Source: Gammaproteobacteria bacterium (lineage in GTDB: Bacteria; Pseudomonadota; Gammaproteobacteria; UBA11654). From it: a DNA stretch of 5,798 nucleotides. Where the stretch lies: NCBI GenBank assembly GCA_018672815.1, contig JABHDX010000006.1:1-5798 (forward strand). The letters run 5' to 3'. A program made the translations under genes and the position numbers. The notes below the pieces were generated by a model. It was given only the letters and a program-made list of their open reading frames with translations. It did no database searches and was not told the DNA's origin. Positions 1-5,798 of the stretch are shown here, one piece after another (positions within the stretch are counted from its first letter, which is position 1; each line of letters opens with the position of its first letter).

Positions 1-170
1 ATTGTATCCCGATACCATTCAGCTAAATGCTGAACCATTCCCTGATTGATTAAGGACTGCATTGCATTCATCGCTTCTGCCTTAATCCACCATTCACCCG
101 CATCATCTTGGTAAATATGTTCACCTTCGATGAAGTCACTAACAATATTCAGAGCTTCTATGATTTCCAT
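1..170 (-). CDS. Hypothetical protein, 5' end only (runs off the left edge)
   Basis: The reverse strand is open from an ATG at 170-168 to the window edge, giving 56 complete codons with no stop. The start is well supported: GGGAGG (complement of 177-182) lies six bases upstream. The visible part is acidic and mostly helical in character, beginning MEIIEALNIV, with a WW pair near residue 27 and a Met/Ala/Gln-rich helix after it. There is no signal peptide, membrane segment or motif that I recognise. A weak inverted repeat (TTAAC at 173-177, GTTAA at 186-190) places the ribosome site in its loop. The gene is transcribed away from the rightward unit starting near 307, so the two share a divergent intergenic region. 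Its function is unknown. Confidence 0.7.
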   Translation of the reverse strand, partial: MEIIEALNIVSDFIEGEHIYQDDAGEWWIKAEAMNAMQSLINQGMVQHLAEWYRDT

Positions 171-256
171 AGTTAACCTCCCATTGTTAAGGATTACTTT
201 AATGTGGAGGTGACAGGCTTAATGCATTGATCGTCTATGGCTGTTTGAAAAAAAGA

Positions 257-280
257 ATGAATTCTAATGAGTTGATTCAT
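257..280. promoter_or_regulatory. Possible operator: inverted repeat over the -35 box
   Basis: ATGAAT (257-262) and ATTCAT (275-280) form a perfect six-base inverted repeat with a 12-base spacer. The right half overlaps the -35 hexamer at 272-277. The geometry would suit a dimeric repressor, but short AT-rich repeats of this kind arise easily by chance and no regulator is encoded nearby. Confidence 0.2.
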
Positions 281-300
281 ATTTGTAAAGTAGTTATTAT
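272..300 (+). promoter_or_regulatory. Sigma70-type promoter for the leader and small-gene operon
   Basis: TTGATT (272-277) and TATTAT (295-300) are separated by exactly 17 bases, matching the consensus hexamers at four and five of six positions. Transcription would start near 307. That is where the 5' strand of the predicted leader pseudoknot begins, which independently supports the assignment. The promoter reads toward the genes at 372 and 618. Confidence 0.55.
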
Positions 301-306
301 TACCAT

Positions 307-371
307 TGCCGATTTGGGGCGCTTGCGGGCATAAACAGCTAAAAGCCCCTCCATTTAAACAAGGAGGTATT
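307..371 (+). promoter_or_regulatory. Structured 5' leader: H-type pseudoknot, SAM-II riboswitch-like
   Basis: The leader between the inferred transcription start and the ATG at 372 folds by hand into an H-type pseudoknot. P1 pairs UGCC (307-310) with GGCA (328-331). P2 pairs GGGGC (316-320), inside the P1 loop, with GCCCC (345-349) downstream. The strands are joined by an A-rich linker (332-344). The unpaired blocks GAUUU (311-315), UUGC (323-326), AUAAA (331-335) and AGCUAAAA (337-344) appear in the same order, relative to P1 and P2, as the conserved blocks I remember for the SAM-II riboswitch (Rfam RF00521). CCUCC (348-352) overlaps the 3' strand of P2 and can also pair with the ribosome site GGAGG (363-367), so the two folds compete. 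The pairings are seen directly; the SAM-II assignment rests on memory. P1 is short and the downstream gene is not a recognisable methionine gene, so another small pseudoknot class is possible. Confidence 0.45.
361..368 (+). promoter_or_regulatory. Strong ribosome binding site that fixes the start at 372
   Basis: AAGGAGGT is a near-perfect Shine-Dalgarno sequence three bases before ATG 372. It excludes the longer reading that would begin at TTG 306, which would lie at or before the transcription start. Its GGAGG core can be sequestered by CCUCC at 348-352. Confidence 0.8.
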
Positions 372-608
372 ATGGATATTTATATATCAAAAGACGACGA
401 GAGATTACGTTTTAGAGTTAAAAAAACATCCCAAGTTAACAACTACTTTACAATTTCAATTGTAGATAATAAACCGCAACTCTACGGAGGATGGTCTAAA
501 GGTGCTTTTGGGGGATCAATGAATCTAAGCAAAGTTAAACTCTGGTCATTATTTCTAAGAGAGTTAAAAAACGCAGTTATGAAAAATAAACTTAACTATT
601 ATAAATGA
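372..608 (+). CDS. Hypothetical protein, 78 aa, first gene after the structured leader
   Basis: I do not recognise this protein. It is 78 residues, cytoplasmic in character (no signal peptide or membrane segment) and lysine-rich. The first half (MDIYISKDDERLRF onward) alternates polar and hydrophobic residues as in beta strands. A glycine-rich turn follows near residues 39-48 (GGWSKGAFGG), then an amphipathic basic helix (about 52-75). A small beta-then-helix fold binding nucleic acid or another protein would fit, but this is inference. The start is set by the strong ribosome site at 361-368. The gene sits directly below the pseudoknot leader and is therefore the likely regulated output. The next gene starts nine bases after its stop, so the two probably form an operon. 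Confidence 0.7.
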   Translation: MDIYISKDDERLRFRVKKTSQVNNYFTISIVDNKPQLYGGWSKGAFGGSMNLSKVKLWSLFLRELKNAVMKNKLNYYK

Positions 609-617
609 GATGCAAAA

Positions 618-983
618 TTGAAACAGATAGAACTATTTAGCATCTCCAATAAAGATATGAAATTGCTAAAAGAGATTGACGAATGCAAAAGGTTAATAGA
701 AAGAATTATGTCTATGACACATAAAATCAATGAATTGAAAGCCTTTTCCCTCTATAGATTAAAAGAAATTGATACTTCTTCAACAGTTATAAATCTTCAA
801 GATTTTACTGAAAAGAAGAAACATTCAAAAGATATAGAACAGCTTAATCAATGTCTTGATGAAAATTTTAGTTTTCTTATCGAGCTACAAGATTGGGTTA
901 ATGAAAATAGTTTTTATGCATCCAAGATTAACTTCTTTTACCTAAGACTAATTACAGAATCAAATAAAGTATCATCTCTTTAG
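618..983 (+). CDS. Hypothetical helical/coiled-coil protein, 121 aa
   Basis: Unrecognised protein of 121 residues. Almost the whole chain looks alpha-helical, with heptad-like spacing of Leu/Ile and many Lys/Glu residues (for example KLLKEIDECKRLIERI near residues 14-29), suggesting a coiled coil or helical bundle. There is no signal peptide or membrane segment. The start is probably TTG at 618, nine bases after the preceding stop, with a weak GAGA purine site at 607-610. An ATG at 657 would give a shorter form. Translation is probably coupled to the 78-aa gene upstream. The last 32 bases overlap the 3' end of the convergent gene on the other strand, leaving no room for a dedicated terminator. 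Confidence 0.6.
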   Translation: MKQIELFSISNKDMKLLKEIDECKRLIERIMSMTHKINELKAFSLYRLKEIDTSSTVINLQDFTEKKKHSKDIEQLNQCLDENFSFLIELQDWVNENSFYASKINFFYLRLITESNKVSSL

Positions 984-1263
984 TTGGAATTAACCCCACT
1001 CCTATAATTAATGCAAGAGCTAAAATTATAAGGCCATACTGAAATAATTCTAATTTATGTAAATCAAAAAATTCATGAGCTTTCTTAGCTGCTAAAGCTA
1101 AATAAACTTTGTAATCTATATTGTTAAATCTAGCTTGACGCTGCTTTGGAACAAAAGGTACCAACTTGTATTTCATTTCAGGCGCCATTGAAAAAACTTC
1201 AGGCAGAATCAAAGTAACAGCTCCATCTGTAATCAATTGAAAAAATTCTCTTCTATTAGGCAT
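952..1263 (-). CDS. Small Tat-signal-like protein with C-terminal membrane segment
   Basis: A 103-residue protein. The N-terminus NRREFF (residues 3-8) matches the twin-arginine export motif. It is followed by a moderately hydrophobic stretch (10-27) ending in a possible cleavage region near SMA-PE. The middle (30-70) is polar and basic. Residues 74-92 form one clear hydrophobic segment, followed by a short tail. If the first part is a Tat signal, the product would be an inner-membrane, C-terminally anchored protein. The h-region holds Asp13 and Glu22, which weakens that reading, so a plain membrane protein remains possible. It starts one base after the stop of the hydrolase gene with no Shine-Dalgarno sequence of its own, implying translational coupling. 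Its 3' end overlaps the convergent gene by 32 bases. I recognise no family. Confidence 0.6.
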   Translation of the reverse strand: MPNRREFFQLITDGAVTLILPEVFSMAPEMKYKLVPFVPKQRQARFNNIDYKVYLALAAKKAHEFFDLHKLELFQYGLIILALALIIGVGLIPTKEMILYLIL

Positions 1264-1264
1264 A

Positions 1265-2086
1265 TTAATTAAGATGCCGATTGAGAAATTCTATTGTTTT
1301 ATCCCAGGAGTCCTCGGCTGCATTGGATTGATACGCACCTCCAGAAGCATTAGCGAAGGCATGTTTGGCTCCCTGATAAAAATGAATAGAAGCGTCTTTA
1401 TTCAAATCTTTTAAATCTTGATCAAATTGTATGAACTGTTTGTGCAATCGATCCTTGGTTCCTACAAAGCCAATAATTGGCATTTCCAATGTTGCCAATC
1501 TTTCTTTATCTTCAATGAGGCTACCATAATATATGACAGTTGCATCAATATCCCTAGGCAACATCAAAGCACCCCTGAGAGACCACTTTCCACCTAAACA
1601 CCAACCAATAATCCCGATTTTTTCAACCCCAACCTCATTTTTAAGGTAATCGTATGCTTGCTTGATATTATCAAGAGCTCTTTGTTCATTATTTGATAAA
1701 TTAGTGCTTAACTGAAAAGCGTCCTTTACTTTAGTTGCTGACTTTCCTTCATAAAGATCTACAGCTAATGAGCTATAGCCCAAGCCTGCGAGTTGTTCAT
1801 TCATCAAATGAATATCTTCATTCAGACCCCACCATTCATGGATAACTATCAGGCCTGAGGTTGTTTTATCGTTTGGCTCACTAAAAAAACCTTTATGAGA
1901 TTGTTCCTGACTTTGACCATAAATAACTTCGCTAGAGGTAACTTTAGCTAATGGATTACGAAGTGCGCCTTCACTAGTAATAGGTGCATCATGACGATGT
2001 TCTTCAAAATCACCCAAGTCAGTTTCAATAGACCAAGACCAGTTAGATATCAGAACTAGAACACAACATAAAAGATATTTTTTCAT
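1265..2086 (-). CDS. Exported dienelactone hydrolase family protein
   Basis: Alpha/beta hydrolase of the dienelactone hydrolase (carboxymethylenebutenolidase-like) family, 273 residues. Residues 1-19 form a Sec-type signal peptide, with cleavage likely after SWS. There is no lipobox, so a soluble periplasmic product is expected. The family hallmarks are visible in order: HEWWGLN (83-89, with the Glu that interacts with the nucleophile), the nucleophile elbow GWCLGG with Cys163, GTKD with Asp212, and GAKHAF with His242. The Cys-Asp-His triad is complete, so the enzyme is probably active; in this family it would cleave lactones or esters. The natural substrate cannot be read from the sequence, and no aromatic-degradation genes lie nearby. 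About 230 residues is usual for the cytoplasmic enzyme; the extra length is the signal peptide and an N-terminal extension (20-60). AGGAG lies only one base before the ATG, an unusually short spacing. Confidence 0.9.
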   Translation of the reverse strand: MKKYLLCCVLVLISNWSWSIETDLGDFEEHRHDAPITSEGALRNPLAKVTSSEVIYGQSQEQSHKGFFSEPNDKTTSGLIVIHEWWGLNEDIHLMNEQLAGLGYSSLAVDLYEGKSATKVKDAFQLSTNLSNNEQRALDNIKQAYDYLKNEVGVEKIGIIGWCLGGKWSLRGALMLPRDIDATVIYYGSLIEDKERLATLEMPIIGFVGTKDRLHKQFIQFDQDLKDLNKDASIHFYQGAKHAFANASGGAYQSNAAEDSWDKTIEFLNRHLN

Positions 2087-2252
2087 ACTCCTAAGACTAA
2101 CAAATAATTTTATATTGACAAATATTTACCACTATTTGATTGCAATTTTGAATGGATAATAGCGCCATATAATCAAAATAAATCAAGACATTATTCTTTT
2201 TTAAATTTCTATAAAGTTCTTAACTTTATTATTTTGATCTGAAAAAAATCCA

Positions 2253-2282
2253 TTGACAGTATAAAAAATTATCTGCTATCCA
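2253..2282 (+). promoter_or_regulatory. Promoter candidate for the GIY-YIG operon
   Basis: A perfect -35 hexamer TTGACA (2253-2258) is followed after 18 bases by TATCCA (2277-2282). The -10 box is weak, but it is preceded by TG at 2274-2275, the extended -10 arrangement. Transcription would start near 2289, giving a leader of about 25 bases. The ribosome site GAGGAA (2302-2307) lies six bases before ATG 2314. Confidence 0.4.
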
Positions 2283-2313
2283 ATAAAAGGAAATTAATAT
2301 TGAGGAATACATT

Positions 2314-2793
2314 ATGAAAACAAAATGCAGAGTTAAACATTGCAGAGGTAACACTAAAAAATTAAACCACCTCTATATCTGTAAAATTTGTAAAGCTGCC
2401 TTTTTTCATGGCACTTATAAATACGGTCATAACGGATTAAAAGATTTTAATAATGATGAGGTATTGCGTGAAGAGTTACTAAAATCAAATATAAGGCCAA
2501 CCAAAAATTGGCAATACTATGTCTATACAATTCAAGCATCTTGGTTGCCTGGAGATAAAAAGAAAACTCTTTATGTGGGTATGACGGGCAAGCATCCACA
2601 TAGCAGGCTATTGGATCATATGACAAATAGAAAGAAGTTAGCTGCAAGAATCTTTAAACGTAAGAAAAATCGTAGGCAAGTAATCACTATGCTTGATTTT
2701 GAAGGTCCAATGAGTAAAAAAGAGGCAATTGCTAGAGAGAAATCACTTGCCTATGAACATAAAGATAACTACTTGGTTAAGGGAGGACATTAA
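2314..2793 (+). CDS. GIY-YIG nuclease-like protein with N-terminal zinc ribbon
   Basis: A 159-residue protein with two parts. Residues 5-26 carry CX4C and CX2C pairs (Cys5, Cys10, Cys23, Cys26), a likely zinc ribbon. Residues 67-159 look like a GIY-YIG domain: YVYTI (69-73) stands for the GIY strand and LYVGMTG (86-92) for YIG. Then come Arg98 and His102 in RLLDH, and the helix EAIAREKSL (137-145), where Glu142 is the expected metal-ligating glutamate. Asn152 lies before a C-terminal KGGH. The Tyr/Arg/Glu catalytic set therefore appears present. The architecture is closest to short uncharacterised GIY-YIG proteins ending in a GGH tail, not to UvrC or homing endonucleases. A DNA-cutting or DNA-processing role is inferred; cellular target unknown. 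The 3' neighbour begins one base after its stop, so the two are probably made together. Confidence 0.75.
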   Translation: MKTKCRVKHCRGNTKKLNHLYICKICKAAFFHGTYKYGHNGLKDFNNDEVLREELLKSNIRPTKNWQYYVYTIQASWLPGDKKKTLYVGMTGKHPHSRLLDHMTNRKKLAARIFKRKKNRRQVITMLDFEGPMSKKEAIAREKSLAYEHKDNYLVKGGH

Positions 2794-2794
2794 A

Positions 2795-3241
2795 ATGGCT
2801 GCAGATTTATACTTACCTTCTTTAGTAGAAGAATTACAAATAAAACTAAACACACACTTTGAAAATGCTCTAAAAGAGAAGGGTATGATCAAAGATAAGA
2901 ATTCTAAGCATTACATACATGCAAATGAAAAAGTAAAAAACATCTACAAACAAATGTGGTCCGAATCTTGTCACTTTCATGATGCATATAATGAGAGCTC
3001 TCTGATGTGGTCACTTGGTCTTTCTTGGTGGAAGGATGTAATACCTATGTTAAATGACAAATATCACTTAACACCTGAAAAAGCACAGGAACTCATTAGA
3101 TTAATTCATACATCAGAAATTGATCCAGAGATGCTAAATCAAAAATACAATTATGAATATTTTTTAGATAAGAAGAAAAAACTAATCAAGTTTCTTGATC
3201 AATCTATAGAATATGGGGAATCAATTGAATGTTCTATATAG
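2795..3241 (+). CDS. Hypothetical helical partner of the GIY-YIG protein, 148 aa
   Basis: I do not recognise this 148-residue protein. It is predominantly helical and charged, with an aromatic core segment (MWSLGLSWWK, 71-80) and several His/Cys residues around 57-63 (ESCHFHD) that could bind metal. A Lys-rich helix near 123-135 follows. There is no signal peptide or membrane segment. The ATG at 2795 is chosen because GGGAGG (2781-2786) lies eight bases upstream and the start sits one base after the preceding stop; a longer in-frame reading from within the nuclease gene has no such site. The strict spacing suggests that the two products act together, for instance as nuclease and partner, inhibitor or immunity protein. 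That is inference from position only. Confidence 0.75.
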   Translation: MAADLYLPSLVEELQIKLNTHFENALKEKGMIKDKNSKHYIHANEKVKNIYKQMWSESCHFHDAYNESSLMWSLGLSWWKDVIPMLNDKYHLTPEKAQELIRLIHTSEIDPEMLNQKYNYEYFLDKKKKLIKFLDQSIEYGESIECSI

Positions 3242-3245
3242 AATA

Positions 3246-3392
3246 TTAATGGACTAAGTCATCCAAAAATTCTGATGCAGGTTTAAGATCTGTTAATAAA
3301 AGATGATCCCTTACTCTTGTGTATACTTCAAAATTCTCAAAGTTATGTAACTCAACTGACTCACAACCTGTTTCCAAAATTCTGACTCGCAC
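3246..3392 (-). pseudogene. Open minus-strand fragment, possible gene remnant
   Basis: Between the GIY-YIG operon and the sortase stop, the reverse strand is open for 48 codons from a GTG at 3392-3390 to TAA at 3248-3246. The first ten codons lie inside the 3' end of the sortase gene in another frame. The part unique to the junction (about 38 codons) reads like ordinary protein, including FEVYTRVRDHLLL and PASEFLDDLVH at its end. No ribosome site is evident before the GTG and I recognise no family. It could be the C-terminal tail of a lost gene, a tiny gene coupled to the sortase, or chance; an open frame this short is not rare. Confidence 0.2.
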
Positions 3393-3945
3393 TGACTACG
3401 TAGCGAAGAGGCGTTGCGGATGTAAGAGCATTAAAGGGATAACAGGTAATGATGAGCAGCACCTCTTTGGTATTTATCGTAGAGATGGTATCGGTCTTCA
3501 CATTCAGGATGTAAAAGTCCTCAATGGTATAGGAATGCCATTGTTGGAAGCGATCCTGTAGCTTAATGGTATCTCCTTTTTTCAATTGTCTGATGTACAC
3601 TCCGTGACTATCACGGTGACTTGAGAGCACGGTTGCCCCTCCCTTACCAGGAAGCTTGCTTTCCTCATGAAAGGCCGGCCCGAACGCAAGGGCTTGTCCC
3701 GATGTCCCGGAGAGTACTATTTGATCCACATTATGACGAGGTATCATTAAGCGCAAGACGGGGACGCCATCAAAACTTCTCCAGGGGCGTTGATCTTCTC
3801 CTGTCTTGATTGTTTTGTGCCAAGCATATTGCAAGAGCGGCTGGGCAACACGGGCCTTCAGTTCAATCTCAAAAACCTTAAAACCAAAGTATCCTCCTCC
3901 TATCAGCAGGATCGATGCTAGGAGAAGGATGGGGAATCTTTTCAA
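3361..3945 (-). CDS. Class GN-type sortase (transpeptidase)
   Basis: Sortase of the kind paired with a VIT/vWA target in Proteobacteria, 194 residues. Residues 4-22 form an N-terminal membrane segment (uncleaved anchor), placing the catalytic domain in the periplasm. The active site is complete: His110 in SSHRDSH, Cys168 in ITCYPF and Arg181 in PLRYVV. By family knowledge, Cys168 attacks a sorting motif in the substrate C-terminus and forms a thioester. The acceptor in Gram-negative hosts is not established. Translation starts at TTG 3945-3943, which overlaps the upstream stop codon as TTGA. The only purine-rich site is a weak AAGAAG a few bases before it, so translational coupling to the target gene is likely. 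The length is normal for the family and the C-terminus appears intact. Confidence 0.88.
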   Translation of the reverse strand: MKRFPILLLASILLIGGGYFGFKVFEIELKARVAQPLLQYAWHKTIKTGEDQRPWRSFDGVPVLRLMIPRHNVDQIVLSGTSGQALAFGPAFHEESKLPGKGGATVLSSHRDSHGVYIRQLKKGDTIKLQDRFQQWHSYTIEDFYILNVKTDTISTINTKEVLLIITCYPFNALTSATPLRYVVSASQNFGNRL

Positions 3946-5798
3946 GCTATTCTTCTTTGTATTTTGAAAAGAAAAAAAGAGCCTAGGAAAAGAAGGATTG
4001 CTAGTAGGAGAAACAGATTCTTATTTGTTGCGGTTGGCACAAAATTTACATTAAGGGCTTTTGCCGTATTTAAGTCTAGCTTGTACAAGGCTTCCATTGG
4101 TCCTTGGTTCAATTGCTTATACTGTTGTTGCATCATGTTTATTTTTTTGACAATCTCCGGGTCCTCCCAGCCATGCGGGATGTTATGTGCAATCTGATGG
4201 CTTAACAAAGGACTGGATTGATCACGCGAGACAATGGGGTCAACAGCCACTAGGGATGTAAACTCAGTGATAAGATGATGTGTGAGACCAAGATCTCTCA
4301 CCCATCGTTCGTATTGCATGGCATCCAAAAAGCCGATTGCTTTTTGAAAGGAGATGTACGCAACTTTTTCACGCGCCCATAGTTGATTGAGGTATTTACC
4401 TTTCTGGATTTGATCAGGTGCAACCGAAAATCTCCATGCTGTGGATCGCTTGTTTCCCTTAATAGTAAAGGGCTCGGTGAGATCTGCCATTTTTGTATCA
4501 GGAATTTTCAAGAAAAAGGTGATGGGCTCATCTGCCAGGATGTCCGGGAATTTTTTTGGTAGCATGTCGTGTTGTCGTGTCATCACAACCCTTAGATCTT
4601 CTAGTACGGGGCGATTAATCTTAAAGAGAAGTTCCTTGATTTTTTCTTTGATATTGCCATCGACATATAAATAACTTCCTCGCCCAGCTTTTGCAATTCC
4701 CTTGATGAGAAAAGAATTGGGGGCACTGCCTATCCCGATTACATGAAATCGCTTGTTCCCGATATGCTCATGAACAGTGGCCATCATCTTAGTTTCATAA
4801 TCAATGGCCCCGTCCGTCATCAGAACCACCTGTTGCTTCATCGATAAAGGAGGTTGCTCTACAATTGCTTCATAGACAGGAGGCAGCATGATAGTTCCAC
4901 CAGTCGCTTCCATGTTACGAACAAATCTTAAGGCTTGTTGCTTAATGCTGTGGGTGGCAGGTTTCGGCGTTTTAAATAATTTATAATGATCATCATTAAA
5001 AGTGATGATGTTTATGTAATGATGTGCAGGCAGTTGATTGATAAAAGCAATCAGGGCTCGTTGCATTTGTCGTAGAGAGTTCCCGCTCATGCTGCCCGAC
5101 ACATCCGCGACAATTGTAATTGCTGTTTTCTCCATCACGGTGAGATCTTGCTGTTCAATTTGCGGATTAATCAAACCGTAGAGATAAAGATCTCTACCGA
5201 TATCCTCTCCGTAAATTTCTATGTAAGGTTCTGGTGACTTGATTGGCGAGAAGTTCAAAACAAAATCTCTTGTTGAGGGCGTCTCACCCTCAACAAGAGT
5301 GATCTGATGATGCGAGGAGGAAACACTGTCAACAGATACGGTGTGAAAGGTACTTTCGGGAATTGTAATGTCAAAGCCGGTGTTCAAGTCAATTGAAATG
5401 GAATAAGGATTAATCGTAAAATCTGGACTCCTATTAATCGAGGAGTGTATCTCAGGATTCAATTCTGCGACTTCTGATGTCACATCACCTTCTTGCACTT
5501 TTTTTGAATGCGTGTAGCGATGATTAATGACGGTTGGGATTCTTAAACTGTAAGTATCATTTTTTAAGGTCAGGATGTCATGATAACGAATCTCTATAAT
5601 GATTAGTTCACCTGGAGCAATGTTAGCAACCTTTGTCTTGAAAATATTGGCTCTGCTCGAGCTCACAAGAGATGCTTTTTGCCCGCTTTTCTTGGCTTTT
5701 TCATAAGTTTTTTCCGCTTCCACTTTCTCCTGAATTATGCCTTCAATAAAACGGTCACCAATTTTCATTCGAAGAAAATCAACTGCTGATTTATCGGG
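3942..5798 (-). CDS. VIT/vWA surface protein, sortase target (N-terminus off the window)
   Basis: This matches the 'marine proteobacterial sortase target protein' family. It is partial: the frame stays open to the right edge, with PDKSAVDFLR preceding the Met at 5768, in line with conserved VIT-domain sequence, so that Met is internal. Counting from the first visible residue (618 in all): VIT domain to about 130; vWA domain from about 225 to 395, with MIDAS residues DxSxS at 232-236, a Thr in TGGT (299-302) and Asp329 in MTDG; a conserved TSLVAV segment near 514-519; then a tail with FVPTAT (586-591), a membrane segment (595-611) and KIQRRIA at the end. The tail has the sorting-signal layout (motif, hydrophobic helix, basic end), although the motif is not LPxTG. 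The product should be exported, membrane-attached and then handled by the sortase encoded next. An intact MIDAS implies metal-dependent ligand binding; the ligand is unknown. Confidence 0.9.
   Translation of the reverse strand, partial: PDKSAVDFLRMKIGDRFIEGIIQEKVEAEKTYEKAKKSGQKASLVSSSRANIFKTKVANIAPGELIIIEIRYHDILTLKNDTYSLRIPTVINHRYTHSKKVQEGDVTSEVAELNPEIHSSINRSPDFTINPYSISIDLNTGFDITIPESTFHTVSVDSVSSSHHQITLVEGETPSTRDFVLNFSPIKSPEPYIEIYGEDIGRDLYLYGLINPQIEQQDLTVMEKTAITIVADVSGSMSGNSLRQMQRALIAFINQLPAHHYINIITFNDDHYKLFKTPKPATHSIKQQALRFVRNMEATGGTIMLPPVYEAIVEQPPLSMKQQVVLMTDGAIDYETKMMATVHEHIGNKRFHVIGIGSAPNSFLIKGIAKAGRGSYLYVDGNIKEKIKELLFKINRPVLEDLRVVMTRQHDMLPKKFPDILADEPITFFLKIPDTKMADLTEPFTIKGNKRSTAWRFSVAPDQIQKGKYLNQLWAREKVAYISFQKAIGFLDAMQYERWVRDLGLTHHLITEFTSLVAVDPIVSRDQSSPLLSHQIAHNIPHGWEDPEIVKKINMMQQQYKQLNQGPMEALYKLDLNTAKALNVNFVPTATNKNLFLLLAILLFLGSFFLFKIQRRIA

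Follow-up and report, generated by a model that had tools for sequence, protein, structure and literature searches.

A probable compact and divergent SAM-II leader ahead of a lineage-specific gammaproteobacterial gene

We analysed a 5,798-nt stretch of a Gammaproteobacteria contig (JABHDX010000006.1; hereafter the window), whose leader at 307-371 is very likely a compact, divergent SAM-II riboswitch with its own expression platform, controlling a lineage-specific gene; we infer its ligand and the level and sign of control. The resemblance to SAM-II, pointed out in a preliminary description of the sequence, is borne out by a full-length, sub-threshold alignment to the Rfam family RF00521, a match to a model built from relatives, the retained unpaired bases and compensatory changes in the stems, and also by three stronger SAM-II matches in a genome with the same locus. 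That description had posed two options, a SAM-II attached to a new kind of gene or a distinct pseudoknot class sharing its geometry. The first is favoured and the second disfavoured: the leader probably belongs to SAM-II, its gene and platform being unusual, and does not form a new class.

Architecture of the leader

All features lie on the forward strand, and re-reading the sequence placed the pseudoknot and its four single-stranded blocks exactly where they had been claimed. Stem P1 (4 bp) joins TGCC at 307-310 to GGCA at 328-331, and stem P2 (5 bp) joins GGGGC at 316-320 to GCCCC at 345-349; P1 adjoins GAUUU, and both stems are in the SAM-II register, which for P1 is common to 12 SAM-IIs from the genome family of a relative. 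The blocks are GATTT (GAUUU; 311-315) in loop 1, GCTTGC (GCUUGC; 321-326), the ATAAA (AUAAA) linker (331-335), whose first A doubles as the last base of P1, and GCUAAA (338-343), within AGCTAAAA (337-344) as read from the sequence. GAUUU, the UUGC at 323-326 and GCUAAA are invariant in the alignment of those 12 relatives (A1). The SAM-II unpaired bases GAUUU, UUGC, AUAAA and GCUAAA are conserved here save for one linker A, which is G345 and able to pair with C320. The pocket bases given in the accessible portion of PMC11508383 would map to U313, U314, U323, U324, U340, A341 and A343. Further downstream, CCUCC (348-352), an anti-Shine-Dalgarno sequence, overlaps P2 by two bases, and the Shine-Dalgarno sequence AAGGAGG (361-367) precedes an ATG at 372.

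A weak putative promoter at 272-300 consists of TTGATT (272-277) and TATTAT (295-300) separated by 17 bases. It had been proposed as the source of transcripts starting near 307; the hexamers are present, the location is plausible and transcription probably begins near 307, but only 9 of 12 hexamer positions match the consensus, and a promoter scan of 150-1000 lends no support, since it returned two promoter-like sites against a mean of 3.6 in shuffled sequence. Here the -10 element ends 10 bases before GATTT; for the best-scoring hexamer pairs of related SAM-II leaders, this distance is 12 bases in six of 12 and 13-19 bases in the other six. One relative (L163) has TTGCTT as its -35 element.

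Covariance models and comparison with known riboswitches

The whole window gave no match to Rfam at the gathering cut-offs. A search of 280-390 at E up to 10 against 4227 families gave seven matches, the sole riboswitch among them being RF00521 (SAM-II), aligned over its full length (model positions 1-79) at 16.8 bits against a cut-off of 36. The E-value of 0.052 applies to all 4227 families; rescaled arithmetically to a single family searched over the entire window, it becomes roughly 6e-4. As printed, the RF00521 model scores P1 and leaves the pseudoknot stem P2 unscored. SAM-V, SAM/SAH, preQ1 and RF01726 (SAM-II long loops) had no match in 280-390 up to E=10, so that of the candidates named in the preliminary description, SAM-II was matched, below its cut-off, and SAM-V and preQ1 were not. 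A match to P9 in the same segment (18.4 bits, cut-off 43) was taken as chance.

We built a model (R1) from A1, whose 12 SAM-IIs have all blocks intact and exclude the window; two RF00521 matches with an altered GATTT block (L212 and L213) were left out, and R1 later recovered them at 52.7 and 61 bits. In the window, R1, which models P1, placed the leader first at 16.4 bits (E=0.0078; runner-up E 0.46). The leader scored 14.6 bits (E=0.036) with a P2-only model and 7.9 bits (E=0.017) with a model of sequence alone; because these E-values are rough and sequence alone already reaches 0.017, structure gains little in E. Run on 14 other loci (99 kb), R1 found long-loop SAM-IIs at 13.2-28.6 bits and the copy of the window leader at 16.4 bits, there with an E of only 0.13, and gave 21.6 bits to L160 143-190, a 17% GC segment that lacks the SAM-II blocks.

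Compared in register with the 12 family SAM-IIs, P1 shows a C-G to U-A change and P2 a C-G to G-C change, pairing being kept in both. These compensatory changes were measured against SAM-IIs that precede other genes, the orthologous leaders being identical.

With RF00521 (SAM_alpha) the leader shares the same unpaired blocks in the same order, a P1 adjoining GAUUU, a P2 reaching from the loop to just past GCUAAA, and the presence of the class in a relative's genome. It differs in a shorter P1 (4 bp, where most relatives have 5-6), one changed linker base, a G+C-rich P2 of up to 5 bp with inverted polarity (in the same register, 10 of the 12 relatives have three pairs and two have two pairs), a Shine-Dalgarno sequence in a separate hairpin beside P2, and the lack of a methionine gene. 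The GAUUU, GCUUGC, AUAAA and GCUAAA blocks are shared with RF01726 too; by our reading, RF01726 members have GCUAAA separated from the P2 3' strand by a hairpin, and the window has no RF01726 match. According to the accessible text of PMC2704228, SAM-V resembles SAM-II in its pseudoknot and in many ligand-contacting bases but lacks the last pairing element, at the 3' end, that most SAM-IIs have. The leader described here has this element. Diverged SAM-II representatives, long loops included, were already known, as noted in the available part of PMC2864571.

SAM-II in related genomes

The same text of PMC2704228 reports SAM-II as commonest in Alpha-, Beta- and Gammaproteobacteria. We found the locus also in a gammaproteobacterial MAG (contig JAQWQE010000025.1, genome G001), which differs at 20 positions from the part of the window compared (1-3200) and at none in 280-1087; leader and gene being identical there, this copy is uninformative on selection. 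The MAG has 12 RF00521 matches at E up to 10, the three stronger ones (35.6, 35.1 and 30.8 bits) all lying below the cut-off of 36. One of the three precedes metF (a 57-aa fragment), one precedes metY, and the third, with a visible terminator-like hairpin and T run, is cut by the contig end. The window-type leader is absent from those 12 matches, though a motif search finds its motif.

Among 11 genomes of the family, six have RF00521 at E up to 0.01, as against none of 14 control genomes, and one has it over the cut-off. A further motif search gave 32 matches against three for a reversed control, and located short forms in three genomes for which RF00521 is not listed at E up to 0.01; metF follows one of these forms and a homocysteine methyltransferase gene the other two. 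Methionine genes follow 11 of the 12 family SAM-IIs (metF in four, once behind a small ORF; homocysteine methyltransferase in four; metY in three), the twelfth being cut by a contig end; family models confirmed five of these proteins. The results suggest that the Rfam SAM-II cut-off misses compact members.

In genome G040, a SAM-II with a terminator-like hairpin (L211 206-632, reverse strand) is followed by a gene whose 88-89-aa product matches WYL_2 weakly and below cut-off, and then by metF.

The leader could instead be a decayed or re-specialised SAM-II descendant that no longer binds S-adenosylmethionine, or binds a related ligand such as SAH. The short P1, the altered linker base, the missing methionine gene and a score far below cut-off would fit such a descendant, and the one further copy at hand differs too little to reveal selection. 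Decay would be expected to hit blocks and stems, yet the unpaired blocks are kept and P1 and P2 still pair, so we regard this as improbable and retain a SAM-II with S-adenosylmethionine as its presumed ligand.

Chance occurrence

It is very improbable that chance alone produced the SAM-II blocks and a pair of short stems in an A+T-rich intergenic stretch. The motif GATTTN{4,8}GCTTGCN{8,16}GCTAAA has matches in five of 296 genomes of the order, about as frequent as the four matches of the reversed control, so the block bases alone prove little genome-wide; the E-values are modest, and the energy fold without the pseudoknot is ordinary (z -0.29), energy folding alone having been set aside as uninformative. 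Against chance, when all bases outside the motif letters were shuffled, a P1 of at least 4 bp together with a P2 of at least 5 bp arose in the right register in only 77 of 200,000 shuffles, and the leader stands directly before a Shine-Dalgarno sequence and start codon in a SAM-II-using lineage.

A strict geometry (P1 at least 4, P2 at least 3) was likewise reached at none of 142 motif places in the 162 viral loci examined, places that include true SAM-II relatives with P2 elsewhere. Eight of the 12 family SAM-IIs pass it and four fail; among the five genome motif matches, the window-type leader and the copy in G082 pass, two fail, and the fifth (L172) falls outside the spacing scanned. A loose motif search of viral contigs hit at least 120 loci, the matches listed being mostly unstructured, and a closer look-alike pattern had no occurrence in these contigs. 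An earlier, loose pairing test (37 places in at least 120 viral loci) was superseded by the strict geometry.

Proposed expression platform

We propose that 307-349 would form the aptamer, a compact divergent SAM-II, and 345-371 the expression platform. P1 and P2 would fold into an H-type pseudoknot in which, by homology, GAUUU, UUGC, AUAAA and GCUAAA may hold S-adenosylmethionine. Control is probably at the translation level, as modelled through a Shine-Dalgarno hairpin abutting P2: CCUCC at 348-352, whose first two bases belong to the P2 3' strand, could pair with GGAGG at 363-367. In the OFF state, the bound aptamer would hold P2 at the two to three pairs of its relatives, CCUCC would close the Shine-Dalgarno hairpin against P2, and translation would stop; in the ON state, P2 with all five pairs would capture CCUCC and partly free the Shine-Dalgarno sequence. 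The controlled unit would be the lineage-specific 78-aa gene with the 121-aa ORF behind it.

In folding calculations, the probability of the hairpin pair 349-366 was 1.0, 0.97 and 0.0 with P2 held at two, three and five pairs. Unconstrained, it was 0.25, the Shine-Dalgarno sequence being then mostly paired elsewhere. Bases 363-367 were unpaired with probabilities of 0.02-0.48 in the pseudoknot-free ensemble and of only 0.41-0.59 with the 5-bp P2. Both ranges argue against a simple OFF switch: much of 363-367 is already predicted to pair without ligand, and the 5-bp P2 frees it only in part.

We lean towards SAM turning the gene OFF rather than ON, since in the described SAM-IIs, as far as the accessible text of PMC9373788 covers them, SAM binding lowers expression either through termination or through masking of the Shine-Dalgarno sequence; the same text has metA mRNA stabilised at the same time as SAM-dependent repression. 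A more speculative reading, which we hold to be doubtful as a whole, is that a SAM-II was recruited outside methionine metabolism to serve an accessory gene of this lineage, with a platform whose P2 length decides the adjoining Shine-Dalgarno hairpin; such a switch might even be SAM-activated (ON). If SAM binding is true, the platform offers a natural test of coupling between P2 length and translation.

Genes downstream

A 78-aa ORF (372..608) follows the leader. Behind it, and in frame with it, lies a 121-aa ORF with a TTG start (618..983), probably the second gene of the unit; the genes after it are on the opposite strand. Neither ORF matches a family over cut-off, hence no methionine or SAM gene is recognised, in agreement with the earlier view that the gene behind the leader is not of this type. 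This suggests that SAM-II can precede genes outside methionine synthesis; among the titles and abstract openings listed by literature searches, none describes a SAM-II before a gene of such kind. If SAM binding is true, the orphan gene offers a way into a SAM-linked process that has gone unrecognised.

Among 5.8 billion proteins, the 78-aa protein falls in two clusters, the window's own form and one 97% identical. Cluster P0001 (six members) has a 100-aa form, and P0002 (16 members) begins at a later ATG. Translation of the leader itself, from TTG 306 to give a 100-aa protein, would use an open frame and is the form of P0001, but it is scarcely credible given that AAGGAGG stands just before ATG 372 with none seen before TTG 306, and that the larger cluster P0002 starts at the later ATG.

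Two metagenomic homologues (P0006 and P0009, one member each) are continuous 203-aa proteins, whereas here a stop in 606-617 splits the two same-frame ORFs, and most member sequences are likewise discontinuous. Two separate genes are favoured over one broken gene: in genome G077 a weak homologue (22% identity, E=0.001 in a one-sequence comparison) corresponds to the 121-aa ORF only and starts at an ATG of its own. Beside it lie homologues of two window genes, one for a 103-aa protein and one for a dienelactone hydrolase, and the G077 locus has no intact leader motif. With the 78-aa gene present in one of 11 family genomes, and the G077 locus without this gene or an intact leader motif, gene and leader look like a lineage-specific addition.

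Pfam gave nothing over cut-off for the 78-aa gene or its long homologue, PHROGs (searched with P0006) and PADLOC had no match, and the best PDB match had E 0.42. The 78-aa protein had no confirmed relative in viral contigs and none in phages, and a DNA-level search of plasmids with the entire window came up empty. Structure predictions were of unusable quality (pLDDT 56 for the 78-aa protein, 42 for P0006). The MAG contig continues with a HATPase gene, a ResIII helicase (PADLOC best match PbeA), an RmuC-family gene and a PD-(D/E)XK nuclease. On the reverse strand of the window, at 3361-5768, a sortase gene lies beside one for a VIT/von Willebrand factor A protein; a comparable ORF pair lies in G077 (L231).

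SAM-II-like leaders in viral contigs

The viral contigs contained SAM-II-like leaders of their own. In six (L130, L133, L136, L141, L151 and L162) a hairpin is inserted after GCUAAA and ahead of the P2 3' strand, and those of L130, L136, L141, L151 and L162 precede a gene resembling metK (confirmed by TIGR01034 for L130). Three of these long-loop copies (L136, L151 and L162), when rescanned, scored 31.6-39.7 bits with RF01726, against a cut-off of 44. In the accessible part of PMC7029224, no riboswitch was found in pelagimyophages with another tool.

Four further SAM-II-like leaders, in contigs listed as viral, directly precede small signal-peptide-like genes: L125 3667-3741 and L029 3936-3988 on the reverse strand, and L160 3943-4001 and L062 5315-5369 on the forward strand. 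L125, at 36.9 bits, reaches the RF00521 cut-off. Neither Pfam nor PHROG gave a family for the proteins of L125 and L029; both contigs contain permuted tmRNA matches, so a bacterial origin is possible for them. Another viral contig has a SAM-II-like leader scoring 40.2 bits with R1 (L114 2011-2072, reverse strand), and it precedes the gene for a 67-aa DUF7417 protein, another gene outside methionine metabolism.
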